In this document: positions 41,773-64,000 of the stretch, piece by piece
Layout of the letters: each line of letters starts with the position of its first letter
How positions within the stretch are numbered: position 1 is the first letter of the stretch
Source of the DNA: Dendrolimus kikuchii
Lineage: Eukaryota; Arthropoda; Insecta; Lepidoptera; Lasiocampidae
Assembly (NCBI GenBank): GCA_019925095.2
Contig: CM034406.1
Coordinates: 20,617,888 to 20,681,887 of the forward strand
Length of the DNA: 64,000 nucleotides
Reading direction: 5' to 3'
The notes under the pieces: model-generated
Seen by the model: the letters and a program-made list of their open reading frames with translations, nothing else
What the model was told of the DNA's origin: nothing
The model's database searches: none
Translations under genes and position numbers: made by a program

Positions 41773-41810
<38 letters not shown>

Positions 41811-41822
41811 CAGCTGCTTTAG

Positions 41823-41847
41823 CCCGGGCGAACAGGATATACCCGAG
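41823..41847 (-). promoter_or_regulatory. 3'-terminal RNA hairpin, element A
   Basis: On the minus strand CTCGGGT pairs with GCCCGGG over an 11-nt loop (two G-U pairs), about 12 nt from the poly(A). Equivalent hairpins occur in B, C and D with compensating changes. Likely part of the signal recognised by the element RT; this is inference. Confidence 0.6.
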
Positions 41848-43143
41848 TCATGTACTACTTATTTTTACTATTTTTATATATATATACTATTTTCGGATGG
41901 ATTTGTAGGATTTGGATGGGAGTTGGCGCAAGTTGGCTTATGTTGGCCAACATATTATATACTACATATACTACTTACTAAATATTTCTTTACTAATATA
42001 TATATACTACCGCATATACTTGAGCAACCGCGTTGCCTCTCCCAAGTCAAGACCCCCAACTCGATTTGTGTTTGAGCTGGTTGTCTTGGCTCGGGGGAGA
42101 TGATCAGCGACTCACCTATATGGTTCCCTATTTCTAGCTAATACTTTGTTATATACTGCTTATACATACTTATATACTTTTTATATACTTATGTGGATAT
42201 TAGGGTGTTGGTTTGTATTGGAAGTTGGTTGGGTTAGGTTGGGGGTTTTTGGATATATATTTTTATTTATTTATTTCATTTCTCTTATATCTATTACATT
42301 CGTTCTTATATTTAAGTATTACATTTTTATTCTTATTACTACATTTTTACATGTTATACCTTTTATAATATTTCTGTTTTGTTTACTTATATGTTTAATG
42401 TTTACATGTTTGTCTTATTTATAAGTAGTACTGCTCATGTTTACCTTTAATTGTTGTTATTGATTCTTAAAAAGACGCACAATATTATCTAGTACATTTC
42501 CTTAGTAGGTAACCTAAAAAAGTTTTCTTATATTATGTTTACAATTTATTGCTATTATATTTATATATATTTATTTTACATAGTTGTCGACGCTGTATGT
42601 AAATATACTGAAGTATATTTCTGCAGTGTCACATCATATACACTAGTTTTTTGCTATTAATCTATTGCTGGTTAATATATATTATATTACATTTCTACAT
42701 TTCAGTTTATAATTACTTTTGTTTGTTCTAGGTACCACTATCCCCAGGTGCCTGCAATGTGGTGAGTTTGTTGATTATTTATTTTCCGATTTCTATCTGT
42801 ACCGTGTATCTGTGTGTGCTACGGAGATGAATTTGTGCTGGTTGTGTTTTGCTTGTTTGTGTGTTTATTTCAAACTTACAACTTTTATATTAAAAGTTGC
42901 TGGTTTTATTGTTGCTGTGTCTGTAGTGTTTGTGTGTGTTAGTGTTTATGCTTATGTGTTATGCTTGTCCGTGTTAGCGCTTGTGTAGTTTTACTTTGGG
43001 TGTATTGTGTTTTTCCACTGCAGGTTCCCAAGGCCCATCTCGAAGCTAAGGTCGCTAGATCTTCTTGGTGTGGTCCCACACCAGCTGTTTTCCTAGTGCT
43101 AGAAGTGGGTACCAGTTCCACGCACGATAGCGGAACCGTAGGC

Positions 43144-43217
43144 CGTACCTTGCTGACTGGCCTGTTGTTACTTTACTGACACCAGTGTCTAAATCCATTT
43201 TTCTACAGCAAGGTACG
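43144..43217 (-). promoter_or_regulatory. Post-gag hairpin, element A
   Basis: CGTACCTTGCTG (43144-43155) and CAGCAAGGTACG (43206-43217) form a perfect 12-bp stem with a 50-nt loop, starting 41 nt after the gag stop codon in the sense RNA. B has the same stem with a covarying pair. Confidence 0.65.
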
Positions 43218-43258
43218 ACTTCCGGTCCATTACTATTGTGTTGCCCTTGGTATCCCTT

Positions 43259-44818
43259 CTAGCTGTAGGCTACGGTTGCGCGCACTATCGCGTCCCACCT
43301 TGCTCTTACGGGACATGTCTCGCTAAAAGCATTATGGTCTGCTTCCGCCTTTTTCTCGCGAGTGCAATTTTTGCATTTTGGTGGTGCGCCCACCGTGTAC
43401 TCCTCGCATTCATTGCGAGTATGGGGTCCACCACAGTGGCTACACATCACCTGGGTCTCCGTGCACAGCTTTTTGCCGTGCCCGAAGCCCAGGCAGATGG
43501 TGCACTGTGTGAGAGGCGACCTATCCGTTACCTGCAGTGTCTGCAGATCGACCCTTACCGTGCCGGTGTCCACCATTCTCCTCCAGAGGGGTGGCGAGAC
43601 CTTCATTATCACTCTATGGGTGTTCGGGTTTCTCCCTCGGATCTTGTAGGCCACTTCCATACGGTCGTCGCCCTCCTCCAGGCCCTCAAAAACCAATTCA
43701 TTTTGGTTTCTGAGGGCTTCAAAGAGGTCGTCGTCCGTATGAGACCTAAGTACACCCGTTATCATCACCATCGGCTGTTTATTGGTGATGTCCTCTGCCG
43801 TAAGTCTCGCTTTCTTCTCGCTGAGCTTCTGCTTCAGCTTCTCCCTCTCCTCTGGGGATCTACAACTTATGATGACCCGGCCATCTCGCGCTTTGCGAAC
43901 GCGCTCTACCTCTATCCCCCCTTGTCTGGCGTTCAAAGCCTCTCTCACTTCCTTGAGGACTTCATCGGCCGAGGCGTTCTCCTTCCCTGACGAAACTGCT
44001 ACGGAGTGTAGCGTCCTGTAAGTCGGTGGTTTTACCCCCGGCCTTACAGCCGCCACACTCGCGTAGCTCATTTTTAGAGTGCTTTCTTTGCTCGATTCAG
44101 ACCCGTACTTCTGAATAACCTGCTCTAGGTTATTCATTCTCTCCAGGCTTTTCTGTATGAGCGCAGTCTGCTCCTCTATTTTGCCCATTATCTTCGACTC
44201 TTCTGTGTTTCTTCTCCGGTCCGGTTCCTGTATTTGAGCTTCTGTCTGCACTTCTTTGCAGCTACTTTCTCGTTCGCCCAGGCCTCCCCTATTATTCGCC
44301 AAAGCTCTGCCCAACTCCGCCTCTGTTTCCTTGTACAAGTCGTACAACCTCTCCACAGCTGTTTGCACGCCCTGTTTGATCTCCGTTTTCAAGTTTCGAG
44401 AGTCATTAAGGTGGAGTTTGGCCCTGGCGATGCAGTTTTTCGCCTCTGTTTCCCTGCTTGTCTCTTTCCCTCCTTTCGGTGGTGTCGTCTTTGTGAAGGT
44501 CTTATTCACAACCCTTGCAGTAGGAGGAGAGAAAGTCAGGGTCACCTTCTTTCTTAAATGGGTTCCTATACTTAGGGGGCTCTTATTTATGTTGACTTCC
44601 AGTCTTGCTTCTTCTTTTGCGGGAGGGGATTCCGCCACCGTCTCTTCCACGTCATCTGTCACTGGGGACCAGTCCCTGTTGATCTGGTTCTTAATCCTCT
44701 CCCTTCTCGCCGTGTCGGGTCCCACGACGGGGAATAACCCCGGAGGTAGTGGTACCTTTTCCGGCGGCGTCAAGACTACCTTCGCTGGTGCGCGGGGTCT
44801 TATAGGCGTTCTATGCAT
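43259..44818 (-). CDS. Gag-like ORF1 of element A
   Basis: A 519-residue protein starting M-H-R-T-P. The N-terminal half is charged and poorly conserved except for RNLKTEIKQGVQTAVERLY. The C-terminal half has SYASVAAVRPGVKPP, VERVRKARDGRVIISCRSPE, ITGVLRSHTDDDLFEALRNQ and VAYKIRGRNPNTHRVIMKV. Three zinc knuckles follow: CTICLGFGHGKKLC (CX2CX4HX4C), CSHCGGPHTRNEC (CX2CX3HX4C) and a longer CKNC...H...C. This is the standard R1-clade gag layout (RNA binding, telomere targeting). The frame is intact and ends ATVAYS. No ORF2 follows. About 70% of C-terminal residues match B; the match to C is clearly lower. Confidence 0.9.
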   Translation of the reverse strand: MHRTPIRPRAPAKVVLTPPEKVPLPPGLFPVVGPDTARRERIKNQINRDWSPVTDDVEETVAESPPAKEEARLEVNINKSPLSIGTHLRKKVTLTFSPPTARVVNKTFTKTTPPKGGKETSRETEAKNCIARAKLHLNDSRNLKTEIKQGVQTAVERLYDLYKETEAELGRALANNRGGLGERESSCKEVQTEAQIQEPDRRRNTEESKIMGKIEEQTALIQKSLERMNNLEQVIQKYGSESSKESTLKMSYASVAAVRPGVKPPTYRTLHSVAVSSGKENASADEVLKEVREALNARQGGIEVERVRKARDGRVIISCRSPEEREKLKQKLSEKKARLTAEDITNKQPMVMITGVLRSHTDDDLFEALRNQNELVFEGLEEGDDRMEVAYKIRGRNPNTHRVIMKVSPPLWRRMVDTGTVRVDLQTLQVTDRSPLTQCTICLGFGHGKKLCTETQVMCSHCGGPHTRNECEEYTVGAPPKCKNCTREKKAEADHNAFSETCPVRARWDAIVRATVAYS

Positions 44819-44855
44819 CTTCCCAGTGAAAGGAGATCACTAGTTCACTGGGAAG
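44819..44855 (-). promoter_or_regulatory. Hairpin abutting the gag start codon, element A
   Basis: CTTCCCAGTGAA (44819-44830) and TTCACTGGGAAG (44844-44855) form a perfect 12-bp stem with a 13-nt loop immediately upstream of the gag ATG (44816-44818). It is not seen in B or C. It could block or tune initiation. Confidence 0.55.
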
Positions 44856-44879
44856 GTAACTTATTTTCTATCTATACTA

Positions 44880-44907
44880 TTCGCCTGGCGCAATAACACC
44901 AGGTGAA
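44880..44907 (-). promoter_or_regulatory. Gag-leader hairpin, element A
   Basis: On the sense strand TTCACCTGG pairs with CCAGGCGAA, then U-G, G-C and U-G pairs close a UAUU loop. It lies 62 nt upstream of the gag ATG, and the same position in B and C holds an equivalent hairpin. Confidence 0.6.
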
Positions 44908-45032
44908 AGGTCAAATAATAAGAAATATACAATATATATTGAACCAGTCAAATAACTAATATAAGGTCAATTAAAACAAAATGCAACTTTGTTGCGGTCA
45001 ACTTAACTAAAAATATTTTTATTTATTTACAG

Positions 45033-45241
45033 GAGGCGTCGGCGCGCCAGCTACTATACACTAGGTAAGTACTGTCCTATATCTATTTATTATACGTACA
45101 ATTTCTAATTTTCTTTTTTGTTGCAGGTCTGGTGGAGTGGAGAGGAGAGGAGCAGGGAGCGTTCCAACAGTGCCAACGGGTCCGCCGCGTCGCGAGGAGC
45201 ACGATGACACCAAGAACGAGGAAATTGGAACACAGGTAAGT
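45033..45241 (+). other. Antisense exon-like blocks, element A
   Basis: On the + strand: acceptor TTTATTTACAG (to 45032), a 32-nt block ending CACTAG, donor GTAAGT (45065), a 62-nt intron-like gap ending TTTTTTGTTGCAG (45126), a 109-nt block, and donor GTAAGT (45236). C has a homologous arrangement. Possibly a spliced antisense RNA; no transcript evidence. Confidence 0.35.
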
Positions 45242-45641
45242 AAAATAGGAAGGTTTGAAAAATAGGGGTGGGGATAGAGGGGTGGGGGGGATGTAGGATG
45301 GTAGGTCTCGTCGAGCCGAGTTGTCCAACCCCAAACACGACCCGCCTATCTGCCTTATTGAGGGAGCAGTGGTGTCCGAAGTTTTACCGAAATAAAACTT
45401 CCCAAACTTCGACCCTTCACTGCTCACGCAATACTGCAGCCAGACGACCGTGCTTGGGCTTATTCTTCTCGCCTCCACGAGCTCTATCGGATGGGGGGTA
45501 AAAATGGGGGGGTTGACCATGCAACTCCGATTTGATCCTGAAGGGATCCAATCGGTAGCTCGAGTCCTAGGTATTTCCCTAATGGAAACCCGGTCTTCCT
45601 ATCTCTAATAGGGCCTGAGATATAGGCCTTACAAAAAATTC

Positions 45642-46150
45642 AAGATGGCGGCCGACTGAACTTTGACACTCTCTATCTTGGGGGTTTTTGGTCATAAGCT
45701 ACCCAAGATTGGGCTTGTACAATTTCCCCAAGTGAGATCTAGGTCCCTACGTGCACAGAATTTTGTAAAAATTTTTGTCAATTTTTTAGGCTCATACGAC
45801 AGAATAGCCCTAGAGAATCACCCTAGTCGAAATCCCAGTCCCGTACGCCCAATAGTTACGGAACTATCGGGGTTTGAAGATTTTCCAATATGGCGGACAA
45901 CTGTCAGATTTCGGCGAGAAACTGCTGTAACTCAGCCAAAAATCGTCACAGCGCCGCCGGACTTCGACTAGGGTTAGACCCCTTACCTACCCTACCCGTT
46001 TCCGGGGGGGGTTCACGTCAAAAATTTTTAGCCTTTTTTATCCCCGGACACTGTCCGCTAGGTCGAGCACTCCTTCCCAGTCAAAACCGCGTCAAAATCG
46101 GATCAGTATATCCGGAGATATTGGCAAAACAAAAAATCCAAAATGGCGGC
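45642..46150 (-). promoter_or_regulatory. Three-module 5' region with YY1/Pho-like sites, element A
   Basis: AAGATGGCGGCC at 45642 and the diverged versions AATATGGCGG at 45887 and AAAATGGCGGC at 46140 are spaced 245 and 253 bp. B and C show the same three-site spacing. GCCAT is the core bound by YY1 and its insect homologue Pho. Confidence 0.55.
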
Positions 46151-46698
46151 TGCCCTTAGCCAAAATCCAGTAAACACCTGGTTCTCAGGCCTGGTTTGGG
46201 CTAGGACAGCCGAGTTTGGGGTCAGGGCGTAGGTCTTGAGGAGACCTATCCAATGCTATTCCTATCTTAATTTTAACTGTTATATTTATTTATATATTTA
46301 CGAAAAACTGTTCAAAAATCAATATCTCCGAAAGTATTGGAGATAAAAATGCCGAATAATATCCGAAATGTCCGCTAAAAGGTGCTCTAATTTATAGTGA
46401 TTTTTAATAAATTTGCCCTAATAATAAAAAAATTTTTAACTTTGTAAATTTTGAAAAATCTAGTTTTTTGAAAAATTTTCGGATTTTTTCTATTATAACC
46501 CTATGGGATTTGGGTGCGGCTAGGTAGAGCTTCTTAGCGCGCACAAACTGGCAGTCTCAAATCCCGCGCGCCTCCAATAGTTTCGGAGATATAAGGGGTC
46601 AAAGTTAAATATTCTAATTAGAAATAACTTAAAACTACTTATCATAAAATTCTGCTGGAACCGGTTTTGCGCCGTCCTCCAGATGGTCTTCAATCCTC

Positions 46699-46750
46699 CC
46701 TAACCTCAAGTCGATTGCTCCAGTAGTTCCGGAGCAATTTTGAGGTTAGG
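46699..46750 (-). promoter_or_regulatory. Two-tier hairpin based on telomeric half-repeats, element A
   Basis: Outer stem CCTAACCTCAA (46699-46709) / TTGAGGTTAGG (46740-46750), 11 bp. Inner stem ATTGCTCC (46714-46721) / GGAGCAAT (46731-46738), 8 bp with a 9-nt loop. The same design is in C at 61745-61796. Confidence 0.65.
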
Positions 46751-47269
46751 AAGTTGTTTTTTTGATCCTGGCAGCTCCGGGTTTCTTCCGATTCCCAAGA
46801 GTGGGGTGTCGGACGACGCGTCTCGGCAGGCTCTCGCTGGCTACCGTGGCCGAATTTTAAGTCTCGAGGAAATTTTTCGACTTATAGCCGAAAAACAAAA
46901 AAGTCCACAAATTTTTCTCACTTTTTAATTTTTTACACAAAAACTATCCAAAATCCTAAGGTCGTTTCTGGCCAATATGTCTTAGTTTTCGACGCTCTAT
47001 CCACTGGTAATTTTGAATTTGGAATAAGTCCAAAAACGGCCAACTTGGGTCCACGTTTTTTAACTTTTTGCACTCTAACTTTTTAGGTCGAGTTGGGAAA
47101 CTTGTTTTTATATTTTTGGGGGATGGGGGCAATGGGGCCCCACAAAAGCCGCCCTTAAAAATCGGGTGTCACCGATTTGGTTTCGGAGATATGAATTTTT
47201 AAAATTTTGAATTTTGATTTTTTCCGAATAACTTTTTTGTCCGAATAGGTATGGATTTACTTTTTGCAC

Positions 47270-47407
47270 AGGCACCTGCGCCTCACTTTCCCGCACAAAA
47301 TGACACTATGCACAACACTGTAGCTATCAAAAAACCTATTATTTTGAATTTTTTCCCGAGGAGCTCTGAGAAAATCGACCGTTTCCGAGCGCGGTTCGAG
47401 CGGAACT
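47270..47407 (-). promoter_or_regulatory. Conserved 5' terminus of element A
   Basis: GCACCTGCGCCTCACTTTC (from 47272) and the terminal GCGCGGTTCGAGCGGAACTGG (to 47409) are shared almost unchanged with B (53354 and 53470-53490) and C (62321 and 62436-62455). Likely the internal promoter and transcription start region. Confidence 0.6.
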
Positions 47408-47444
47408 GGTTAGGTTAGGTTAGGTTAGGTTAGGTTAGGTTAGG
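47408..47444. repeat. Telomeric (TTAGG)n array between A and B
   Basis: About seven TTAGG units between the 5' end of A and the poly(A) junction of B. Confidence 0.95.
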
Positions 47445-47483
47445 TTTTTTTTTTTTTTTTTTTTTTTTTTTCAGCTTTTCTAG

Positions 47484-47507
47484 CTCAGGCGAACGAGATT
47501 GCCCGAG
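47484..47507 (-). promoter_or_regulatory. 3'-terminal RNA hairpin, element B
   Basis: Sense strand CTCGGGC pairs with GCCTGAG over a 10-nt loop, with one G-U pair. Homologous to 41823-41847. Confidence 0.6.
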
Positions 47508-48189
47508 TCAATTATGTATTTTTATTTTTGCTTTATTTGGTCACAAACATGCACTTCTCTTACAAACTACGTATTGGGTAAATAAATTTTTACTATTTTA
47601 GGAATTTGGTTGGAGTTGGTTTGAGTTGGTTTAGATTGGTTTGGATTGGATATTAGATAGGGTCGCGTTTTTGGTCAGATATGGTTAGGAAATTTAGGGA
47701 GGGACGGGTAAGGGTTGTTTTGTTTATTTATTCATTTATTTTACCTTTATTTAGTCTACTTGTACAATTTATAGAATATGCCAAAATACAATTTCTTTAC
47801 TCTGTATCTATATCTACTATATATTTATGACTTATTTATATGTGAACTATTTTAACTCTATTTTGTATACAATACTATCTTATTTATTTAAATTTAGAAT
47901 TTTGTGTACATATGTGTTCGTAGTCTTACATTTTGTGCCTTCTATTTTGTTGATATCTTATATTGTCTGCTGCTGTGCTGCAGTATCCAGTACATACATA
48001 CTTTGTAGTCGCTTACTTATTTAAAACTAGTTATATATCTATGTTTTATTCTATTACTAACGCTATCAGTAGATATACTGCAGTATATTACTGTAGTGTT
48101 ATTTAAGTACTACTTTGTATTACTCTATCCTATTGCTGGTCAACACACATCTATATACTAACTTTGTTCTTTTTTTTTTTTTGTTACAG

Positions 48190-48221
48190 GTCACGACTAC
48201 ATTCCGGGGTCCTACGGTATG
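48190..48221 (+). other. Antisense 32-nt exon-like block, element B
   Basis: Preceded on + by T-run plus GTTACAG and followed by GTAAGT. The counterpart in A is 42732-42761 (30 nt; TTGTTCTAG before, GTGAGT after). In both elements the next acceptor-like site (A 43023 CCACTGCAG, B 48523 ACTCCGTAG) is 262-302 nt downstream. Confidence 0.3.
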
Positions 48222-48634
48222 GTAAGTATTTTTATTGTTTTGTGTTAATGTGTTTAGCGAATGAATGTGTTTGCGCTATGAATTCGTGTTTGTATGGGTT
48301 TGCCGGGTATGTGTGTTACAAACAAATTGCTTTTCCATTAAAAGCCGTTTGTTTTGGTGTGTTTGTACCGTGTTTTATGGCTGTTTATTGTTCTGTGTAT
48401 TTTGTTTGTTGTGTGTGTGTGTGTGTGTTTTGTTATTTGTGTACGTGTTTGGTGCTCGTGTTTGCCGTGTGTTGTTGCATGATTGTGTTCTAGTGTGTTT
48501 GTGTGTTGCGTTATACTCCGTAGGCTCCCTTCTCCATCTAGTCGTCATGGGTGTTATTTGGTCCCCACAAGAACATGCATCGCCTTATGTTAGGTGGGTC
48601 CAACCGGTCACGCGCAAGATAGTCGAGCCGTAGA

Positions 48635-48712
48635 CCGTACCTGGCTGGCTGGTCCTATGACACATACTTTTCTACCAGTACTATTGTTCCGTGTTTTCTC
48701 AGCCAGGCACGG
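48635..48712 (-). promoter_or_regulatory. Post-gag hairpin, element B
   Basis: CCGTACCTGGCTG (48635-48647) and CAGCCAGGCACGG (48700-48712): 13 pairs in the sense RNA including one G-U, with a 52-nt loop, 39 nt after the gag stop. One pair is changed on both sides relative to A. Confidence 0.65.
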
Positions 48713-48751
48713 TTCCCGGCCCATTACTATTTTGTCGTCCCGGTGGCACAT

Positions 48752-50539: not shown

Positions 50540-50604
50540 CCTGCTATTGTCGGGGGGTAATTTGTCCTAAAACGTGTACTTACACTAAGGTGGGTCCTAC
50601 TCTA

Positions 50605-50633
50605 TTCGATTGGCGCAAAAGCACCAAATCGAA
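50605..50633 (-). promoter_or_regulatory. Gag-leader hairpin, element B
   Basis: Sense strand TTCGATTTGG pairs with CCAATCGAA (one bulge), then U-G, G-C and C-G pairs close a UUUU loop. It lies 66 nt upstream of the gag ATG. Confidence 0.6.
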
Positions 50634-51731
50634 GGGTCAATTTGGTAAAAATAAAGTCAATAGTATGTATTGAACCAGTCAATAGGACAAAATAAAACAA
50701 ATTGAATACAATTTATTTGTCAGAATATCAACTAAAACTAACTTATACTAACTACAATTTTTTATATTGCAGGTTCCTAAGGAGGTGTCGGGAGCGGAAT
50801 CAAGGAAGGGTAGGTATGGTAAAATAAGGTAAAAGGTATGTGTAGAGGTAAGGTAATAAGGTATTGGTAAGGTAACGGTGAGGTAAGGTAAGGTAAGGTA
50901 AAGGTAAAATAGGGTAAAGGTAAAGGTAAGGTAAGGTAAAGGTTAGGACCAGGTAAGTATAAGGTATAACAAGGTAAGTATACAAGGAAGGTGAGTTTTG
51001 GTGTTTTGAGAGACGAGTGTGACTGGATTTTGAGCGTGTGTGAATGTTTTGGAACTGTGTGGATTTACTGCAAGATGATTGTATGAATGTTTATAATCGA
51101 GGTAAGTGAGGTGAGTGAGGTAAGTACAGTTTTGTATGCGGTAAGTGTACTGAATGCACTAATTTTGACTGTGTATGTGTGAGAGAGTGAAAGAATTTGT
51201 AATTGTGTGAGGTAAGTGAGGTGAGTGTAAGGAATTTCACTATTCCACCAGGCCCAGTTTGTTGGTCCCGGGAAGCCGATTCTGGGGATACCAAACTCGG
51301 CTATCCTAGGCCCAACAATGACCGAGTTACGGGTGGAGTAGTTTTGAGGGGTAGGTAGGGGGCGGGGAGGGGTTCCTGCTATTAGGTCTCAGAATTCCGA
51401 GTAAAACGAGCCCAAAGTCGAGTATTCTACTCCCTATATTCTCCGCGTAGTGGAGGTCCAAATTTCCAGAAAATTTTCTGGAGTGTCTACCTGGATTTTT
51501 AAAATCCCTTTTCTAAGTCAAATATTGCCCTAATGGGGCTGTGTTTGGGCTCGCCGTACAGGGCTTTTCGAGATCTATCGATCTATAGTCAAATATCAAA
51601 CAAAAAGTTTTTTATCTAAAAGTTAAATTTTTTGGGCAAATTCGTTAGCCGGGGGGTCCCTTTAGCTAACAAAGGAAACCGCTGTTAAATGCGCCCAATA
51701 ACGACGGAGATATAGCCACTTGAAAAATTTC

Positions 51732-53723: not shown

Positions 53724-53745
53724 CCAAGCTATCAAGGTTGCTCGG
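53724..53745 (-). promoter_or_regulatory. 3'-terminal RNA hairpin, element C
   Basis: Sense strand CCGAGC pairs with GCTTGG (one G-U) over the 10-nt loop AACCTTGATA, about 8 nt from the A-rich tail. The same hairpin is in D at 62547-62568. Confidence 0.55.
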
Positions 53746-54293: not shown

Positions 54294-57200
54294 TTATGTA
54301 TCTATATCTATTGTTTTGTTTCTATTTACTACACTTTTGACTATCCTAATGCAAAAAGCTATAAATTCCTCAACGTTTACTTTTAACATTAATACGTGCA
54401 TATTTTCGGGTCGTATTTCTACCTGAAGCCTGCTTTCGCAGTCGTATCTCTCCCGGGTATATACCGGACACCAGAAAATGAGGTGCGGGATATCTTCTTG
54501 CTTGTCGTCGTCGCAGATGCACGAGGGATTCTCTTTGCACCCGAACCGGTTCAGGTACTCCGAGAATCCCCCGTGCCCCGTAAACAACTGGGTATGCAGA
54601 CCGGTGAGGCCGATCTGCCTAACTGTCTTGAAGGCCCGCGTGACTTCAGGGAAAAAGAGTTTCGTAACGGATGCCGTTGACTCTTGACAGTATCTCCGGT
54701 TCCATTCGTCAACCGTTCCCATACGGAACTGCCGTTTGACGAAGGAAACCGGACACTTGTCGTAAAGCGGCTTCACTTTCAGAGAAAGTGCTGCCGCTTT
54801 TGCCAACTCATCCGCCCGCTCGTTTTCTCTGACGTCAACGTGGGCCTTTACCCAGTACAGGCTCACCTGCTTCCCTTGGAGAACACACTGCCGTATGTTC
54901 TCTCTCGCTTCAAACGCCAGCGGATTCACTGAGCTCCAGCAGCACAGCGATTGCAACGCCGATCTGGAATCACTGTAGATGCCAAAGCTTCTTTCTGCGC
55001 GCCTCCAAGCCGCCGCCGTAGCCTCACGTATCGCCAGCAACTCTGCCTGATAGACCGTGCAATAGGACGCCAGCTTAATCTTCCGGCTTTTGGTCTCGAC
55101 CTCATTATCCCAAAAGGATAATGAGGCTCCGACCTGGCCTTCGATTAAGCTGCCGTCCGTGAAGATACGCACCGCCTGAAGGCGTTGCGCATCCACCTGC
55201 TCCTGGTCCATCAGGCAGCCAAACTGTAACTCGATCTGTGAGGCCGGGTGAGTTGTGTTGGCGTAAGCAACTCGCATTTCCACCTCCCTGTCCCCAAGCA
55301 TTGGCTGCTCTACCCCCCTCTTGGCCTCGTATAGGGAAGCTACTTCCTTTATACGGAGGTCAAGGGGGAGCAGACCAGACAACACCATTGCCGAGTTCAG
55401 GGAGACGGTCTTGTATGCTCGACACATTTTTTGAGCGAATCCTCTTTGGACCGTGTTGAGTTGCTTACGCACACCCAACTTTGTGGCTGAAGGCGCCCAG
55501 ACGCTCGCTGCATACAGGATCACTGGCTCCAGCACCGCTGTATACATAATCCTGACGACCTCAGGGTTAAGGCCCCAGGTGACCTTCGCGGCGCGCGATA
55601 GTTGCTTATGGAAACTGATTGCCTTCGCACATACACTACGTATGTGCGAATTGAATGTTAAGCTGCTGTCTATGGTTACACCTAGGACTTTAACCTCCGA
55701 GGCCATCTCTATGCTGACCCCTCCCATGCTCAGTCTTGGGGTGTCATACTTTAATTTCCGGGTGAAAGTAACAGCTTTCGTCTTATGCGCGGCAAATTTC
55801 AGTTTATTACGGACACCCCACTCCTGAACATAGGAGAGAGCCGCATTAGCTCCTCTCTCAATGCTGCTGCCGGAGTCTCCGTCAAACAGTAAGACTACGT
55901 CGTCCGCAAACGCCTGTACATAGTATCCTCGCGCTTCAAGGTCTTTTAGAAGGGGATCGAGGAGCAGGTCCCATAGGATAGGCCCCCCTATGGATCCCTG
56001 CACGCAGCCTTTCGTGGTCTGTCTTTCCACCTCTTCTCCTAGGTACCTAAGCGAGACGCTGCGGTTTTCCAGGTAGCTGCCCAGTATCCTCTGGATATTG
56101 CCTGGGCAGTTTTCCTCCGCCAACCGGACCCTAATCATGGGCCACCAAGCGCTGTCGAACGCTCCCTCTATGTCTAGTGAAACAAGTGTTATAATCTTCT
56201 TTTGTTTCAGCTTACCGCGTATGCTGTTCACCAGATCATAGAGGGAGTCCTCCGTGCTTTTTTGAGGCAGGAATCCGTATTGGCGGGCGCTCAGCTTAGG
56301 CACGAGGTGCCACGTAAGTCTGTTGATTATCAGTCTTTCGAGAATTTTACCCATCACTGGCAGAAGGCCGATGGGCCTATATGACTTCGGATGTGAGTAG
56401 TCTTCTTTTCCCGGCTTCCGGAGCACGACCACAGTCGCCCGCTTCCAGACCGCCGGGAAATGTCCAAGTGTAAGGCACTTATTAACCAGTGATAGGTAGA
56501 ATCCTGGCTTATGGTAAATGGCCTGAGCACAGATGTCAGCGGTCAACCCATCTTCCCCGGGTGCCTTCTTGGGATTGAACCGGTTTGCAGCTTGTCGAAG
56601 TTCTAGGGCAGTGAAGAGCGGATCGTCGTTCTCCAGCAGGGCGATCTCCTGGTTCGTCCTAGCCGCCTGCTCCCGTATTGCCCTGTGTTCTCGGTTCTCT
56701 CCCTCGGCACTGTCCGCGGGGTAGAAGGTCTCTGCGAGTAGTGCAGCAGATTCTCGTGGGCCCAGGACCACTCCCTTATCCATCATAGGCTGATCCTCGT
56801 CCCTCTTCCTCGTCCTTCCGATGACCCGGTATATCCCCTCCCAGACTCCCTCCCGATCCTGCTTACCGCAAAACTCCTTCCAGCTTTGTGTCTTTGCGGC
56901 GCTGATCTCCCTTTGATATCTTGCTTTGACTTGCAGGTACTCGTCGATGCAACTCTTTCTACGGGACGGCGCGGCGCAGCGGATTTTCCTCTTCTCTGCG
57001 ACGACTCCACGCTTCAGTTTGGCGAGCTCTTCCGACCACCATGGTAAGTTTATTTTATTTTTCTGTTTTATCTGTGGTATACTATTTTTGCATGCTTCTA
57101 CTAGTGTTTTATTTAATGATTCTACTTTATTTTCCAGGTCCGTCGTGTCTGTCAGTTCTTCAATTCCGTCTATGGTAAGTCTATTTTCTAGCATTAGTTG

Positions 57201-57953
57201 GTCCACTTTCTCACGAAAGTGGCCCCAATTTGCTTTACGTGTATTAAATATTCGGGTTGTCCTGATCATACATATACCGTTAAGCGGTTTGGTCTGAATA
57301 GTAAAACAAATGGTGTTATGGTCAGAGCTCGTCACCCCGTCATCTACCTTCCAGCCAGTCACAAAGTTGAGGAGATCCGCTGAGCAGACCGTGATGTCGA
57401 CAAAGCTCGTTAGAACTTTGCCTCCACGCACGGTGTCGAAGGTGGGAGTTTTCCCATCGTTGAGCACCTGCAAGTCCAACTCGTTCAGGAGTCCTGCTAG
57501 CCTCTTCCCTCGTCTATCTTCTGTGGGGCTGCCCCACCATGGACTCTTCGCGTTTACGTCGCCGCCTATTACTATCCTCCGGGTTCCTGTGATTTTAGCG
57601 ATATCTCTAATTTGGTCCATGTAGGACTCCATGTCTCTGTCGGGTTCGAAGTACAGGGAGGCCACTATCAGAGCGCTAGGCCCACTCCCCATCTTAACCA
57701 CCACCATGTTGTCGGTGGTGCATTCCGGCACACTGACAGCTTGTACCCGTGGGTCAAACACGGCAATTGCCGCCTTGATGGTAATTCTGGTTGGTTTTTC
57801 GTTTTGGTAGGTCCTAGCGCCCCGATAGTCCTTCAACCTTCCCGTTGCGCCTACGTAAGGTTCTTGGAGTAGAGCGAAAGCCGCACCTCTCTCACTGGCA
57901 GTGTTGAACAATTCGTTCGTTGCGAGTTCCATTCGCTGCAGGTTGGCTTGCAT
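54294..57953 (-). CDS. ORF2 of element C: endonuclease, reverse transcriptase, RNase H
   Basis: A 1219-residue polyprotein. The apurinic-like endonuclease (1 to about 215) has QANLQRMELA, LLQEPYVG, GDVNAKSPWWG (131-141) and SSDH (209-212). The reverse transcriptase (about 450-800) has SYRPIGLLPVMGKILER, QYGFLPQKSTEDSL, SLDIEGAFD (592-600), GCVQGSIGGP and the catalytic FADD (682-685). RNase H has D933 (TDGS), E971 (QAELLAI), D995 (YSDSRSAL) and D1048 (ADELAKAA). The C-terminus has a CICDDD...H...C zinc-knuckle-like segment (HLIFWCPVYTRER). Catalytic residues are intact. The endonuclease cuts the telomeric repeat and the RT primes there. The frame is open upstream of the ATG as far as the end of ORF1; the ATG lies 53 nt beyond the ORF1 stop. 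Confidence 0.95.
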   Translation of the reverse strand: MQANLQRMELATNELFNTASERGAAFALLQEPYVGATGRLKDYRGARTYQNEKPTRITIKAAIAVFDPRVQAVSVPECTTDNMVVVKMGSGPSALIVASLYFEPDRDMESYMDQIRDIAKITGTRRIVIGGDVNAKSPWWGSPTEDRRGKRLAGLLNELDLQVLNDGKTPTFDTVRGGKVLTSFVDITVCSADLLNFVTGWKVDDGVTSSDHNTICFTIQTKPLNGICMIRTTRIFNTRKANWGHFREKVDQLMLENRLTIDGIEELTDTTDLENKVESLNKTLVEACKNSIPQIKQKNKINLPWWSEELAKLKRGVVAEKRKIRCAAPSRRKSCIDEYLQVKARYQREISAAKTQSWKEFCGKQDREGVWEGIYRVIGRTRKRDEDQPMMDKGVVLGPRESAALLAETFYPADSAEGENREHRAIREQAARTNQEIALLENDDPLFTALELRQAANRFNPKKAPGEDGLTADICAQAIYHKPGFYLSLVNKCLTLGHFPAVWKRATVVVLRKPGKEDYSHPKSYRPIGLLPVMGKILERLIINRLTWHLVPKLSARQYGFLPQKSTEDSLYDLVNSIRGKLKQKKIITLVSLDIEGAFDSAWWPMIRVRLAEENCPGNIQRILGSYLENRSVSLRYLGEEVERQTTKGCVQGSIGGPILWDLLLDPLLKDLEARGYYVQAFADDVVLLFDGDSGSSIERGANAALSYVQEWGVRNKLKFAAHKTKAVTFTRKLKYDTPRLSMGGVSIEMASEVKVLGVTIDSSLTFNSHIRSVCAKAISFHKQLSRAAKVTWGLNPEVVRIMYTAVLEPVILYAASVWAPSATKLGVRKQLNTVQRGFAQKMCRAYKTVSLNSAMVLSGLLPLDLRIKEVASLYEAKRGVEQPMLGDREVEMRVAYANTTHPASQIELQFGCLMDQEQVDAQRLQAVRIFTDGSLIEGQVGASLSFWDNEVETKSRKIKLASYCTVYQAELLAIREATAAAWRRAERSFGIYSDSRSALQSLCCWSSVNPLAFEARENIRQCVLQGKQVSLYWVKAHVDVRENERADELAKAAALSLKVKPLYDKCPVSFVKRQFRMGTVDEWNRRYCQESTASVTKLFFPEVTRAFKTVRQIGLTGLHTQLFTGHGGFSEYLNRFGCKENPSCICDDDKQEDIPHLIFWCPVYTRERYDCESRLQVEIRPENMHVLMLKVNVEEFIAFCIRIVKSVVNRNKTIDIDT

Positions 57954-57988
57954 GACTTTGTACGGCTTCCGCTCCTTAGAGATCGCTT

Positions 57989-58004
57989 GGTACCCCGGGG
58001 TGCC
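57989..58004 (-). promoter_or_regulatory. GC-rich palindrome at the ORF1/ORF2 junction
   Basis: GGTACCCCGGGGTGCC is self-complementary (one T-G pair) and begins one base after the ORF1 stop codon in the sense RNA. Together with the open, overlapping +1 frame of ORF2 it may aid reinitiation or coupling of ORF2 translation. Confidence 0.4.
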
Positions 58005-58005
58005 C

Positions 58006-59613
58006 TTAGCAATAGGCGACCGAGGCGCGCGCTATCTCCTCCCACCTGATGCGTATAGGGCACTTACTGTCAAAGGCGTTATGGTCTGTGTCCACCTTCT
58101 TCGCCCTCCTGCAATTGCAACAGGTAGGTGGTGCCCCCGCCCTAAAGTCCGCACATTCATATTTCATATGGGGGTCCCCACAGTGACTGCACTTTGGCTG
58201 CTGTGCTTCTTGGCAGATCCTCTTACCGTGACCATAGCCAAGGCACTGCGAGCACTGGACCAGCGGCGACCTGTCCGTCACGTGGAGTGTCTGGAGGTCC
58301 ACCCTCACTACTTTCGTCGTCGTCAACCGCTGCCACAGCCTCGGTGCAACTCGCAAGACGACTCTATGAGTTAGGGGATTTCTCCCCTTAATCTTGTAGG
58401 CCACCATCATTTCTGTCTCTTCTTCGTTGAGCCCCTCGAAGACCTTGCGGTTCTGATTTCTCAGGGCTCTGAAGAGCTCTTCATCGGTGTGTACTCTCAA
58501 TACACCGGTAATCTGAACTAAAGGATTTTTATTGCGGACATCCTCTACCTTCAAGTGCTCGTTTTCCCTAATTCTCTCCTTTAGCTTCTCTCTATCACTG
58601 GCTGTTTTACAGCCAATGATTATTTTCTTGTCGCGGCCCTTTCTAACTCGCTCTATCTCGAGGTCCCCATCCTTCGCTCTTAGGGCTCCGCGTACTCTGT
58701 CGAGCACTTCTTCCCCCGTCCTTTCTTGGTCAGTGTCGGTGATTACCACCGAGTGCAGTGTTGGGCGCTCAGGTGCTCTAGCCCCCTCCCTCCCTGACAC
58801 TACACTGGCGTAACTCACTCGACTCTCCTTTAGTTCTTCCCTGTGCCTGTCCAGTTCCCCTTGGAGGTCCCTGATGCGCATGGTGTTATCCCTCATTAGA
58901 GCTGCGTGCTCCTCCAGTTTGCGCATCAGTTCGTCCTTTCCCTTTTCAACCTCGCTTCTATTTACATCTGGGTCAATTTGGGCTTCGGCCCCTGTGTCTT
59001 GTTTTGTTATCTCCCCTCCTTTCCCCTTTCCCTTGGTAACTCCTTCGTCATTAACTGAATTAAGCTCTTTTATAAGCTCCTCACATAGGTGATAGAGCCC
59101 ATCTACTGCCGTTTGAACCCCCTGCTTAATTTCAGTTTTCAGGTTTCGGGAGTTACCTAGGTGCTCGTTTATTTTGTTGTAGAAGGCTTTGGCCTCCGTC
59201 ACCCGACTTTTGTGTTTTCCCGCCTTAGGCGGAGTCGTGAGGTCTTCTGTCGCAATTGCTTGCGGGTCCGTTGCCTTTGAGGTCGAGGCCTTCTCTTCCG
59301 TCTTAGAATATGTTTTATTCAAGTTCCCAGAAGGTTTTGCAGCAGTCCCGGCTGCTACTGCAGTCACTCCCCTCTTGGGCTGAGGGGGAGGGGAATACCT
59401 AAGGGTCACACTTCTGCTGAATGGATCCTGTCCTTTTTCATTTAGTTTCCCTGTCCCTTTCTTTAGTGTCTTCCATTCACCAGAACTCCTACGTGATTTA
59501 GGAGATGTCGGGCTTGCCATATTTGGGGATTGGAAATCCCCTTCGTCACCACTGCTGGCTTCCTGGTTTCTGGTTTCCTGGAGATCCTTAGGTTTTCTTG
59601 GTGTCCGAAACAT
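58006..59613 (-). CDS. Gag-like ORF1 of element C
   Basis: A 535-residue protein starting M-F-R-T-P. It contains RNLKTEIKQGVQTAVDGLYH, a coiled-coil-like segment (about EELMRKLEEHAALMR to HREELKE), SYASVVSGREGARAPERPTL, ITGVLRVHTDEELFRALRNQ and VAYKIKGRNPLTHRVVLRV. Three zinc knuckles follow: CSQCLGYGHGKRIC, CSHCGDPHMKYEC and CCNC...H...C. It ends ASVAYC. The core aligns with the gag of A and B, while most of the N-terminus does not. It is expected to coat element RNA and direct it to telomeres, as shown for R1-clade gags in Bombyx. Confidence 0.92.
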   Translation of the reverse strand: MFRTPRKPKDLQETRNQEASSGDEGDFQSPNMASPTSPKSRRSSGEWKTLKKGTGKLNEKGQDPFSRSVTLRYSPPPQPKRGVTAVAAGTAAKPSGNLNKTYSKTEEKASTSKATDPQAIATEDLTTPPKAGKHKSRVTEAKAFYNKINEHLGNSRNLKTEIKQGVQTAVDGLYHLCEELIKELNSVNDEGVTKGKGKGGEITKQDTGAEAQIDPDVNRSEVEKGKDELMRKLEEHAALMRDNTMRIRDLQGELDRHREELKESRVSYASVVSGREGARAPERPTLHSVVITDTDQERTGEEVLDRVRGALRAKDGDLEIERVRKGRDKKIIIGCKTASDREKLKERIRENEHLKVEDVRNKNPLVQITGVLRVHTDEELFRALRNQNRKVFEGLNEEETEMMVAYKIKGRNPLTHRVVLRVAPRLWQRLTTTKVVRVDLQTLHVTDRSPLVQCSQCLGYGHGKRICQEAQQPKCSHCGDPHMKYECADFRAGAPPTCCNCRRAKKVDTDHNAFDSKCPIRIRWEEIARASVAYC

Positions 59614-59680
59614 ACTCGGAGAGATTCGTCAAACTTGTCAAATTTAAAATTGCTCAAAGAGCCAAGGAACTATAACTATA

Positions 59681-59708
59681 ACTATTTAACACAAAAGTGC
59701 TAAATAGT
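59681..59708 (-). promoter_or_regulatory. Gag-leader hairpin, element C
   Basis: Sense strand ACTATTTA pairs with TAAATAGT, then a G-U pair and CAC/GTG close a UUUU loop. It lies 68 nt upstream of the gag ATG. The stem sequence differs entirely from A and B, but the design is the same. Confidence 0.6.
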
Positions 59709-59846
59709 ATCAACTCTAAAAATACTGTCAAAAGACCAATCCTTAAACTAACACGTAAATAAAACAAACACAGTGTATATTTAGTCAAAAGTGTAGTAAA
59801 ATATTTTACAATCTATACTTATACTAATTACAAATTTTTGTTTCAG

Positions 59847-60296
59847 TTCCCCAGAAGAGGTGAAGGTGCCGGGAGTTTATAATCTAGGATGCAGGTAAGT
59901 ACCACCGGGTAAATAGGGAAGGTAAGGTACCACACTAATCTTTATTTTTGTTCACAGGTATTCCTGCAGTCAACTTGTCTCCACCCCGTGGAGAGTCACA
60001 ATTAAACAAGATAAGTCAATACTATTTCAAAGTTTTCTATGCCTAAATAGGCAGATCAAGGTCTTAGTCTTACAATTTACTGTAAACTTATATACTATTT
60101 ACCTATATGCTATTCTTAAACTATTTTGTTCGCTCAAACACTTATTTTTAATTCTTTTTTCTGTTTCAGGTCCAGGGGAGGAGCGGGATGGCGCCGGGAG
60201 CCGGGAGGTGGACAGGTGGAATCGTCGCGTCAACACGAGTTCAACGACACCTCGCACGCCGGGATTGGTCAACAGGACTAGGAGTTACAGGTAAGT
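59847..60296 (+). other. Antisense exon-like blocks, element C
   Basis: On +: TTTTTGTTTCAG, a 48-nt block, donor GTAAGT (59895), a 63-nt gap ending TTGTTCACAG (59957), a second block without a clear donor, then TTTTCTGTTTCAG (60169), a 121-nt block and donor GTAAGT (60291). The last block and its donor context resemble 45127-45241 of A (ACGACACC, GGGATTGGTCAACAG, then GTAAGT and G-runs). Confidence 0.35.
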
Positions 60297-60689
60297 ATGG
60301 ATAGGGGGGGAGCTAGAGGGGGGGGAGGTTAGTAAATCGACAGATCTCGTCGTCCCGAGTTGAATGATACCAAACTCGACTATGTTAGCTTTGAAATTGA
60401 CTGAGAAACAGGCTGCGAAGTTTTGTCCCTAAAAAACCGGATGAAACTTCGCAACTTTCAAATCGTTGTTTCTCACTCAATATCACTGCTAGAAGCTCGA
60501 GCTTGGGCTCAAACCTCTCGCCTCGGCAAGATCTGTCGACTGAGTCGAAAAAACAGGCTGAAATTTTTGAGATTTTTTGAGACCTAAAAATGGGTCCAGC
60601 AGGTGCTCCTGATGCTGGGGGCCACTCCTGAGGAAACCCGAGCTTCCTCAGGTAGATATTCACGAAGTTATCGGAAATTTAAAATTTCC

Positions 60690-61198
60690 AAGATGGCCGC
60701 CAGGAAAGTTTGGTCGCCCAAATCTCAGCAACCAGGAGGCCGACTGTACCCGTGTTTGGGTTTATTGGGATGCCCCTGGCCTAATCTAGGTCCTAAACCT
60801 ATTTTTACACGTCAAAATTTTAGGTGCAATTTTTTGGCTCTATCCTATAGAGAAAGCTATCCTGAGTCCTACAGTCGAAGTCCGGAGTTCGTACGATGAA
60901 TAGCGGCCGAGATTTTGGACTCTAAAGAAATCCAAGATGGCGGCCGAACTGTCAAAATCCGGCGGGAAAACGCCGTAACTCCCTGATTTTATGTCCGATT
61001 CGGACCGGACTTGGACTGTAGTGTTGCCCGCTGTCTTTTCCACCCCGCTACGGGGGGGGTTCGTACAAAAAATTTTCCGCCTGTTTTACAGGCTAGTCAG
61101 TCGCTAAAGCCTAACCTAATGTTAGCAGTCAAAATCCCGCCGCGCTACGTTAGATAATGGCCGAGAAAACAAGGTTTTAAAATTTCCAAGATGGCGCC
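60690..61198 (-). promoter_or_regulatory. Three-module 5' region with YY1/Pho-like sites, element C
   Basis: AAGATGGCCGCC at 60690, AAGATGGCGGCC at 60934 and AAGATGGCGCC at 61188: spacings 244 and 254 bp. A fourth AAGATGGCGG at 61769 lies in the loop of the two-tier hairpin. Confidence 0.6.
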
Positions 61199-61744
61199 GG
61201 CCCTTAGCCGAAAAACACCAACTCACGATTTCTCGGGCTACTATGGGCCGAAACCAGTCGAGCTTGGGCTCGTCTTAAAGCTCTCGGCGAGATCTAACTA
61301 CCTACTGTACTACTTATTAGCTAGGGACTATATATATCTATTTATTTAAGTTTTAAGCCAAAAAATTACGTATCTTGGAAAGTATAATGCGTAAAATTTT
61401 CAAAAAATTTCTAAATTATGCCAAAAACTTTGCTCTATTTTACCCCAAATTTTGTTGATTTTACCCAATAATAAAAAATAATAAAAACTTGAAAATTTTG
61501 AAAATTTCGGTTTTTTGATTTTTAAAAAATATTTTCCCTAGGTCAAAAATCGGTTTTTTATGCGGGCAGGTAGAGCTGCCTGCCGCGCAAGATACTGCAA
61601 TTTTGAAACCCACGCGTCACTTATACTTTCCGAGATATTTATAAAACAATTTTAATTTTCTAATATGAAATAATTAAAAACTATAATACCTAAAATTATT
61701 CTAGGACCGGAATTTATCTTCGCTCGAAGAGGTCTTCCACCAGT

Positions 61745-61796
61745 CCTAACCCAGACTCGATTGCTCCAAAGATGGCGGAGCAATTTCTAGGTTAGG
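61745..61796 (-). promoter_or_regulatory. Two-tier hairpin based on telomeric half-repeats, element C
   Basis: Outer stem CCTAACC (61745-61751) / GGTTAGG (61790-61796). Inner stem ATTGCTCC (61760-61767) / GGAGCAAT (61777-61784) with a 9-nt loop. Matches 46699-46750 in A. Confidence 0.65.
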
Positions 61797-62454
61797 AACT
61801 TGTTTTTTTGATGATGACTCCGCCGGGTTTGCTCCGATGTTCGCGTGTGGGGTGTCAATCGATGCGTCTCAGCGATCCCCCGGTGGCTGCCGCGGCGGAT
61901 TTTCAAGCTCCGAGGAAGTTTTTTGAACTAAACTCAAAAAACAAATTTTGTCCGAAAATTTTCGCACTTTTTAATTTTTTACGAAGTGACTATAATTAAA
62001 TCTAAGGTTGTATCTGGCCAAATAGCCTTAGATTTTGACGCTCTACAAGATGGTGATTTTTAATTTAGAAAAAGTTAATATACGGCAATTTTGGGTCCAC
62101 GTTTTTTCACTTTCACCGAAATAACTTTACGGGAGGAGTTGGAAATTTCCGTTTTGTATTTTTGCGGTATGGGGGCACACGGGCCCCACAAAAGCCGCCC
62201 AAAAAAACCGGACCTCACCGATCTTATTTCGGAGATATTAATTTTTGAAAATCCAAAAAATAGTTTTTGTTGAATAACTTTTTTGTCCGAATTGATATCA
62301 CTTCACTGATTTCACTAGCACCTGCGCCTCACTTTTGCGCACACTTTGATATATCACTCGACTTCGTATCGTTAAAAAATCCTATTTTTAGGAATTTTTT
62401 CCCGAGGAGCTTAGGTCAAATCGACTGTTCTCGAGCGCGGTTCGAGCAGAACTC

Positions 62455-62516
62455 GGTTAGGTTAGGTTAGGTTAGGTTAGGTTAGGTTAGGTTAGGTTAG
62501 GTTAGGTTAGGTTAGG
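62455..62516. repeat. Telomeric (TTAGG)n array between C and D
   Basis: About twelve TTAGG units. Confidence 0.95.
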
Positions 62517-64000
62517 TTTTTTTTTTTTTTTTTTTTATTCCTCTCTCCAAGCTATCAAGGTTGCTCGGGTTATATGCTTTTTTGGGGATTTTATTTTCAT
62601 TTTGTCTTTTTTTATTCTCTTTTATCTATTTCTTTCTCTTTTGATTTCTGCTTATCTTTTTTGTTTTCTTTCTTTATTTATTTATTTATTCTTTTTGAAA
62701 AATAGGTTTACAAGTTTTCTTAATGCTATTACATTTTTGTTTCTTTTGTTTGTACATTTTACTTATTAATTACGGCCTAATCTCTAATTTATATCTATTA
62801 CATTTTTTTAACTTTCTAGAAAGAAAAAAAACAAACTTTTAACAATTTTCATTTCTACTACTTATTTTCTACATTCTAACTACAGGCACTACTTACTAAT
62901 TGAATTCTAACGCTGCAGCAAGCTTCCTATATTACTTATATCATATATACTATTATGTCCTCTAACTATTTCTATTTTATTATCTATAATTATTTTCTAT
63001 ATGTTTTTGTATTTTTATCTTTTTTTAGTTTTGGCTTATAGACTATTTACTTATTTACCTTTATTTAGTTTTCTGCGAATTACTTATATATACTAAAATA
63101 TATAATAATTTCACATATTATGTATCTATATCTATTGTTTTGTTTCTATTTACTACACTTTTGACTATCCTAATGCAAAAAGCTATAAATCCCTCAACGT
63201 TTACTTTTGACATTAATACGTTCATATTTTCGGGTCGTATTTCTACCTGAAGCCTGCTTTCGCAGTCGTATCTCTCCCGGGTATATACCGGACACCAGAA
63301 GATGAGGTGCGGGATATCTTCTTGCATGTTGTCGTCGCAGATGCACGAGGGATTCTCTTTGCACCCGAACCGGTTCAGGTACTCCGAGAATCCCCCGTGC
63401 CCCGTAAACAACTGGGTGTGCAGACCGGTGAGGCCGATCTGCCTAACTGTCTTGAAGGCCCGCGTGACTTCAGGGAAAAAGAGTTTCGTAACGGATGCCG
63501 TTGACTCTTGACAGTATCTCCGGTTCCATTCGTCAACCGTTCCCATACGGAACTGCCGTTTGACGAAGGAAACCGGACACTTGTCGTAAAGCGGCTTCAC
63601 TTTCAGAGAAAGTGCTGCCGCTTTTGCCAACTCATCCGCCCGCTCGTTTTCTCTGACGTCAACGTGGGCCTTTACCCAGTACAGGCTCACCTGCTTCCCT
63701 TGGAGAACACACTGCCGTATGTTCTCTCTCGCTTCAAACGCTAGCGGATTCACTGAGCTCCAGCAGCACAGCGATTGCAACGCCGATCTGGAATCACTGT
63801 AGATGCCAAAGCTTCTTTCTGCGCGCTTCCAAGCCGCCGCCGTAGCCTCACGTATCGCCAGCAACTCTGCCTGATAGACCGTGCAATAGGACGCCAGCTT
63901 AATCTTCCGGCTTTTGGTCTCGACCTCATTATCCCAAAAGGATAATGAGGCTCCGACCTGGCCTTCGATTAAGCTGCCGTCCGTGAAGATACGCACCGCC
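62517..64000 (-). mobile_element. TRAS-like element D, 3' part (cut by window edge)
   Basis: Poly(A), 3' UTR and ORF2 C-terminus nearly identical to C, in the same orientation, directly distal to it. The 5' part lies beyond base 64000. Confidence 0.92.
63118..64000 (-). CDS. ORF2 C-terminus of element D (partial)
   Basis: The visible last 292 residues hold the whole RNase H domain (TDGS, QAELLAI, YSDSRSAL, ADELAKAA) and the C-terminal knuckle. They differ from C at about six residues (R to K in AAW-RAERS, DK to NM in the CICDD segment, and three changes near the C-terminus). The frame runs off the right edge. Near identity indicates a very recent copy or gene conversion. Confidence 0.92.
   Translation of the reverse strand, partial: AVRIFTDGSLIEGQVGASLSFWDNEVETKSRKIKLASYCTVYQAELLAIREATAAAWKRAERSFGIYSDSRSALQSLCCWSSVNPLAFEARENIRQCVLQGKQVSLYWVKAHVDVRENERADELAKAAALSLKVKPLYDKCPVSFVKRQFRMGTVDEWNRRYCQESTASVTKLFFPEVTRAFKTVRQIGLTGLHTQLFTGHGGFSEYLNRFGCKENPSCICDDNMQEDIPHLIFWCPVYTRERYDCESRLQVEIRPENMNVLMSKVNVEGFIAFCIRIVKSVVNRNKTIDIDT

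Follow-up and report, generated by a model that had tools for sequence, protein, structure and literature searches.

The gag-only retrotransposons A and B described here very probably represent a TRAS-type telomeric lineage that lost open reading frame 2 (ORF2), probably once, kept its termini and hairpins, and is copied into (TTAGG)n repeats by the ORF2 protein of sister families. They lie in a 64,000-nucleotide stretch of the Dendrolimus kikuchii genome (the window; C20:20617888-20681887, in a contig of 20,777,536 bases that ends about 96 kb past the window edge), the right third of which is made of four elements, A to D, arranged head to tail and all on the minus strand. As the original prediction had stated, A and B have intact gags of 519 and 595 residues and no ORF2; a tblastn search for remnants with the ORF2 of C returned noise (best E-value 0.13, antisense), and the alignment between the two elements downstream of gag was confirmed. 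The elements and the telomeric arrays around them are as follows.

41544..41763, plus strand: degenerate (GGGTT)n array, inner edge of the telomeric array
41776..47407, minus strand: element A, a TRAS-type retrotransposon with gag only; its 5' end is at 47407 and its poly(A) at 41776-41810
41823..41848, minus strand: 3'-terminal hairpin of A
43126..43239, minus strand: gag/ORF2-junction hairpin of A, with the AATGG box and a remnant of the ORF2 N-terminus
43259..44818, minus strand: gag of A, 519 amino acids, three zinc knuckles
47408..47442, plus strand: telomeric (GGTTA)7 array separating A from B
47445..53489, minus strand: element B, gag-only, poly(A) at 47445-47471
47484..47509, minus strand: 3'-terminal hairpin of B
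48618..48733, minus strand: gag/ORF2-junction hairpin of B
48752..50539, minus strand: gag of B, 595 amino acids, three zinc knuckles
53490..53689, plus strand: telomeric (GGTTA)40 array separating B from C
53692..62454, minus strand: element C, complete TRAS element with gag and ORF2
53724..53747, minus strand: 3'-terminal hairpin of C, with diverged loop
54294..57953, minus strand: ORF2 of C, 1219 amino acids, with endonuclease, reverse transcriptase (FADD), and RNase H
57871..57981, minus strand: gag/ORF2-junction hairpin of C, a stem of about 16 bp around the first in-frame ATG of ORF2
58006..59613, minus strand: gag of C, 535 amino acids, three zinc knuckles
62455..62514, plus strand: telomeric (GGTTA)12 array separating C from D
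62518..64000, minus strand: element D, of which the 3' part only is in the window
62547..62570, minus strand: 3'-terminal hairpin of D, its diverged loop identical to that of C
63118-63999, minus strand: ORF2 of D, 3' part

In all four elements the poly(A) is followed by CCTAACC, and the three 5' ends that lie within the window (A, B, and C) each come after CCTAACC. D is complete past the window edge (ORF2 at C20:20681008-20684664, gag at C20:20684720-20686324), and each of C and D encodes an intact gag. These two elements belong to TRAS, a lepidopteran family of telomere-specific non-LTR retrotransposons of the R1 clade, by their TRAS1-like endonuclease, their three-knuckle gag, the endonuclease–reverse transcriptase–RNase H make-up of ORF2, and their insertion in (TTAGG)n with the poly(A) joined to CCTAA. 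The best solved-structure match of the C endonuclease is TRAS1 ORF2p (1wdu; E-value 2.5e-66, residues 1-220), with R1Bm endonuclease at 1.7e-06. The gags fell below Pfam cut-offs, no Pfam family being recognised. A and B are related to TRAS by homologous gag, leader, target site, and 3' hairpin but lack ORF2, which makes them a TRAS-derived gag-only lineage and not autonomous TRAS elements. The termini that A and B had been said to share with C are indeed shared at the 5' end (72% identity over 174 positions between A and B, 64% over 2355 between A and C, and 65% over 291 between B and C) and in the stem of the 3' hairpin, whereas the 3' loop of C and D has diverged.

The absence of ORF2 extends to the copies read elsewhere in the genome, as predicted. 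The search with the gag of A scored 83 of 834 candidate places and gave 95 matches, treated as 83 loci; the search with ORF2 scored 38 of 14133 candidates. No scored ORF2 locus lay within 300 bp downstream of any of the 83 A-gag loci; as a control, 29 of the 53 C-gag-like loci that entered this comparison, out of 82 C-gag matches, had an ORF2 match offset by exactly 56 bases. Because just 38 of the ORF2 candidates had been scored, we read the post-gag DNA directly. No ORF2 followed gag in any of 38 post-gag stretches (L001-L038: the 30 best matches to the gag of A, L001 being A itself, and eight chosen representatives), nor in window B. Among 18 further representatives from the C-gag list, 12 were without ORF2 and six had it, so that 51 of the 57 gag loci whose downstream DNA was read are gag-only. 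Counted by exact tags, the gag-only post-gag box has 202 occurrences (reversed control, 7) and the ORF2-bearing junction has 54 (control, 0), a ratio that is rough given the unequal sensitivity of the tags, the gag-only one missing window B and the L033/L034 type. Apparent exceptions were discarded: the ORF2-like match of L014 begins where similarity to L015 has already stopped at poly(A)-CCTAA, and those at L021 and L022 are antisense to gag. L021 holds, at 3544-4215 and in opposite orientation to the adjacent gag-only copy, a diverged ORF2 fragment (33% identity), possibly SART-like. We also rejected a second coding frame past the AATGG box of gag-only elements, as its length ranges from 11 to 104 codons among copies and five close 104-codon copies vary at nonsynonymous sites only.

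A tree of 111 gags bears on how this state arose. All 37 distinct gag-only gags group with three annotated D. kikuchii proteins into a single clade (support 1.0). The ten gags of ORF2-bearing copies fall outside it, and so do the proteins of other origin, which may come from gag-only or complete elements. The node joining the ORF2-bearing gags, together with P0005-P0007, has a support of only 0.547, and P0074, a fourth annotated D. kikuchii protein, covers 18% of the query and sits on a long branch. After the gag stop, gag-only elements read, for example, MDRKSYLAV (A) or MGRKPCLAV, and at the same distance from the stop ORF2-bearing families read KERKPYKV, KERKSYRV, or KGRKSYSVVQ. These shared first ORF2 codons, along with the single gag-only clade, indicate that ORF2 was lost past its first codons and before the subfamilies split. 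The gag-only state thus derives, probably by one loss, from an ancestor with gag and ORF2. The earlier description of this state as ancestral therefore holds with respect to A and B only, complete elements being its source. In L004-L007, gag is a mosaic with an A-like start and a C-terminal part closer to B than A's own is, which suggests recombination or template switching among gag-only subfamilies.

The gag of these elements is under purifying selection. Ratios of nonsynonymous to synonymous substitutions (dN/dS) were calculated by the Nei-Gojobori method for pairs with dS between 0.02 and 1. Gag-only pairs (n = 78) have a median of 0.217 and a maximum of 0.390, and all 13 independent pairs are at or below 0.36. 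By region, the medians are 0.044 for the zinc-knuckle part (73 pairs), 0.196 for the N-terminal part (33 pairs, three above 0.5), and 0.218 for the middle part (118 pairs, one above 0.5); the four pairs of ORF2-bearing gags have a median of 0.144. The selection predicted for A- and B-type gags is thus borne out, the exceptions being some very close pairs near or above 1. It argues that gag aids the RNA that encodes it.

At the 3' end, gag-only and ORF2-bearing elements have in common a hairpin with a 7-bp stem and a 10-11-nt loop. Of the 21 distinct stretches recovered, we aligned 16 from both classes (10 gag-only loci, window B, the upstream neighbour of L021, to which no class was assigned, the ORF2-bearing L051, L052, and L056, and window D); 97.3% of cells are paired, against 16-46% in slid registers, with double changes at four of the seven pairs. 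These stretches were collected via loop-like patterns, so that other end types are under-represented. Among L001-L038, 18 show a GUUCG-type loop, two (L014 and L020) show poly(A)-CCTAA and no loop, and the other 18, which include L036 with a variant hairpin ahead of its poly(A), have neither loop nor telomeric junction within the stretch. In L014 and L020 the poly(A)-CCTAA stands at an internal site, as if reverse transcription had begun on a transcript polyadenylated too early. The 3' stretches of nine ORF2-bearing copies comprise four with the loop (L051, L052, L056, and L058), one with another end (L055), and four without telomeric junction.

The loops also bear on which elements could supply ORF2. 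It had been proposed that C and D in particular mobilise A and B, and the two elements are indeed adjacent, intact, and endowed with a 3' stem that can be aligned with the others. However, their common loop, AACCUUGAUA, differs from those of A (AUAUCCUGUUC) and B (AAUCUCGUUC), which match the loops of the sister ORF2-bearing families L051 (AUAUCUUGUUC), L052/L058 (AAUCCUGUUC), and L056 (AAUCUCGUUC). The sister families are consequently the likelier donors, this part of the original prediction is not supported, and a specific dependence on C/D-type elements appears unlikely; as sole donor, C/D is weakened by the same divergence. The further suggestion that A and B may provide gag to C and D stays a conjecture, the latter two each encoding an intact gag.

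A second hairpin lies at the gag/ORF2 junction. In 32 distinct gag-only stretches it is extended and comprises four helices with 30 pairs in all; paired cells make up 95.2%, against 25-45% when the register is slid, and double changes affect 10 of the 30 pairs (80 cells), bearing in mind that cells count sequences, not events, and that the structure was derived from the same sequences on which it was scored. We rejected the idea of a gag-only novelty, since a stem of about 14-17 bp is found at the same place in 7 of the 10 ORF2-bearing junctions fetched with their gag end, and in window C. The 3' arm of this ORF2-bearing stem lies within ORF2 codons; in seven distinct sequences, 92.4% of cells are paired compared with 38-49% when slid, and three pairs are doubly changed. 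The stem is missing in L044, L045, and L046, three copies of a 62% family, and L042 is 5'-truncated. The 5' arms of both classes are clearly the same sequence, and the 3' arms were co-placed by the aligner. Folding z scores of single sequences range from -0.96 to -4.89 in 10 gag-only stretches, and are thus not uniformly convincing, and from -3.17 to -5.48 in six ORF2-bearing sequences with the stem, compared with -0.53 and -1.11 in two without it. The junction hairpin most likely predates ORF2 loss and has since been kept. Downstream structure has a role in the translation of SART1 ORF2. This translation depends on that of ORF1 (PMC2881922), and work by Kojima in 2005 reportedly found the coupling to run via UAAUG. 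The retention of the hairpin where ORF2 is gone means that a role in translation does not explain it alone, and, as it outlives ORF2, it may serve in ribonucleoprotein (RNP) assembly or in reverse transcriptase (RT) recruitment.

Copies with identical gags indicate recent movement. L004, L005, and L006 have the same gag, poly(A) tails that are 21, 30, and 28 nucleotides long, and 3' neighbours that all differ (two different element 5' ends and a non-element sequence behind a (CCCAA)n array); likewise, L016 and L017 have identical gags and different 3' flanks. L004 and L005 are 5'-complete, yet their first 50 bases differ; L006, like the closely related L007 (tail of 26 A), lacks roughly the first 14-15 bases. 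Unlike tails and flanks among such copies imply that the family moved recently, because they are the mark of separate target-primed insertions, whereas block duplication would preserve the flanks. The (CCCAA)n array that adjoins L006 (L104), on another chromosome, is similar to the (GGGTT)n array at window 41544-41777 that adjoins A, and the sequence at the 5' end of L006 (L100) is tandemly repeated and unrelated, in place of telomere repeats.

An alternative is that gag-only elements are deletion derivatives that owe their spread among chromosome ends to recombination or break-induced replication and not to retrotransposition. Telomeric arrays do recombine, and MoTeR arrays expand in this way (PMC7367193); the gag mosaics of L004-L007 and the different first 50 bases of L004 and L005, despite their identical gags, would also fit. 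On the other hand, identical-gag copies vary in both poly(A) length and flanks (length alone could slip), gag is conserved by selection, and 3' ends follow the order hairpin, poly(A), CCTAA, as in target-primed insertion. We thus consider that spread by recombination is improbable. Still less probable is the co-option of gag by the host for a telomere function, which would be in agreement with gag conservation and with the location, within 300 kb of a contig end, of 57 of the 70 A-gag loci (out of 83) that lie on contigs of known length, since selection acts across many diverging subfamilies (the 13 independent pairs), as in mobile elements, whereas a host gene is expected as one or few conserved copies. 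In 54 of these 57 loci the 3' end points toward the centromere.

We return to copying by sister families as the preferred scenario. The A/B lineage would stem from TRAS-type telomere-specific long interspersed nuclear elements (LINEs) that lost ORF2 past its first codons and kept gag, the long leader, the junction RNA hairpin, and, in most copies with a visible end, the 3'-terminal hairpin. It would then have diversified into many subfamilies, which by tag counts outnumber the ORF2-bearing ones. The gag-only RNA is probably coated by its own gag, a cis preference that would account for the purifying selection on gag, and the ORF2 protein of sister TRAS families may copy this RNA into (TTAGG)n by means of the common 3' hairpin and poly(A). 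That the elements borrow their copying enzyme from sister elements is most likely, judging from sequence; that ORF2 is supplied in trans, which families donate it, how gag acts in cis, and what the junction hairpin does are what we infer from the same source. There is a precedent in SART1, whose proteins mobilise in trans foreign RNA with the SART1 3' untranslated region (PMC7265360).

Several observations weigh against this scenario. The comparison by coordinates is not exhaustive, given the scored fractions (38/14133 for ORF2 and 83/834 for A gag). The gag frames of L008 and L024 failed start/frame parsing and were excluded from the dN/dS analysis and from the tree. Among the 11 closest gag-only pairs, which fall below the cut (dS at most 0.014), six have dN/dS of 0.55-1.23 and two show no synonymous and one and four nonsynonymous differences, so that some gag-only copies may be decaying. 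In the gag-only copies L014 and L020 the poly(A)-CCTAA end is not preceded by the 3' hairpin, which is then not strictly required. Shuffled alignments matched the number of doubly changed pairs in 78 of 500 cases and that of pair types in 194 of 500 for the 3' hairpin, in 16 and 101 of 500 for the gag-only junction, and in 178 and 220 of 500 for the ORF2-bearing junction; because shuffles often match these counts, the case for the hairpins rests on paired cells and on the covariation score. Finally, the 5' end of L006 is fused to non-telomeric sequence, and in single copies gene conversion could be the source of identical gags and slippage could change tail length.

The leaders and the rest of the window show other features. 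Splice-like signals antisense to the elements, namely GGTAAGT donors and T-rich...CAG acceptors, the latter mostly about 200-430 bases upstream of gag, are present at window 45034-45240, 59842-59894, and 60165-60292 and in the leaders of L009, L014-L018, and L027, recurring across subfamilies; several leaders have arrays of donor-like (GGTAA)n repeats. Antisense RNA from leaders would head telomere-ward, into UUAGG repeats. The motif AAGATGGC, which resembles a YY1/Pho motif, occurs 10 times in the window (1.69 expected); eight of these occurrences fall within leaders (those of A, B, and C), always on the plus strand and several spaced by 244 bp. The leader sites and the remaining features are:

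45642, 51732, 51976, 52220, 60690, 60934, 61188, 61769, plus strand: AAGATGGC sites in leaders
8012-12673: (TCTG) array, about 1165 copies
12927-13201: (TTTTGCCC) array
20429-22081: intronless glycosyltransferase family 92 frame, 550 amino acids, in a GC-rich block

Comparable elements are known from other systems. HAL1 (half-L1) of mammals is a LINE derivative that has ORF1 without ORF2 and, unlike A and B, is dispersed and non-telomeric. A and B are like HeT-A in being gag-only telomeric elements with an RT-bearing relative. Flies have no telomerase, and HeT-A, TAHRE, and TART are added at free chromosome ends (PMC4700185). A-D differ from these elements in belonging to another family, in lying inside TTAGG repeats, in having ORF2 families with an endonuclease, and in the presence of a TERT frame. 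This putative frame of 707 amino acids has the RNA-binding domain and PDB matches to telomerase reverse transcriptase, and gave no RVT_1 match at 1e-3. With it and the TTAGG-type arrays between elements in the window, the proposed resemblance to the division of labour of HeT-A, beside TTAGG, is upheld. Coexistence with such repeats is seen here but is not unprecedented, since MoTeR1 and MoTeR2 of Magnaporthe lie inside TTAGGG repeats with their 5' ends closest to the chromosome end, and MoTeR2, devoid of RT, has the same termini as the RT-bearing MoTeR1 (860 bp at the 5' end and 77 bp at the 3' end), the RT region being replaced in MoTeR2 by unrelated sequence without obvious function (PMC7367193). 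A and B differ from MoTeR2 in keeping an intact, selected gag, and MoTeR differs from TRAS in that its related RTs are those of SLACS and CRE1. Non-autonomous R2 and R2/R1 hybrids are described as internal-deletion derivatives of site-specific LINEs (PMC3414825); unlike A and B, they are ribosomal DNA elements. No description of gag-only TRAS was found in the open-licence PMC literature, and a search on Dendrolimus telomeres gave only an assembly comparison; a search of the FoTeR paper yielded no passage of relevance. The best reading is that HeT-A and the fungal MoTeR2 are precedents, and that gag-only TRAS represents a HeT-A-like division of labour in a telomerase-type telomere.

More tentatively, and as a possibility that we would not favour outright, these telomeres may be a two-component system operating beside telomerase, in which the gag-only majority provides much telomeric DNA and a telomere-homing gag, the TRAS minority provides ORF2, and the junction hairpin is a shared signal for RNP assembly or RT recruitment. 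The lineage would have arrived at the HeT-A strategy independently, in a genome where TTAGG repeats and a telomerase gene persist, and because the strategy stands here beside a telomerase gene, the order in which labour was split and telomerase lost becomes testable. A hairpin that outlives ORF2 presumably serves something besides ORF2 translation, and gag-only elements may thereby offer a natural experiment on how a LINE RNP chooses its RNA.

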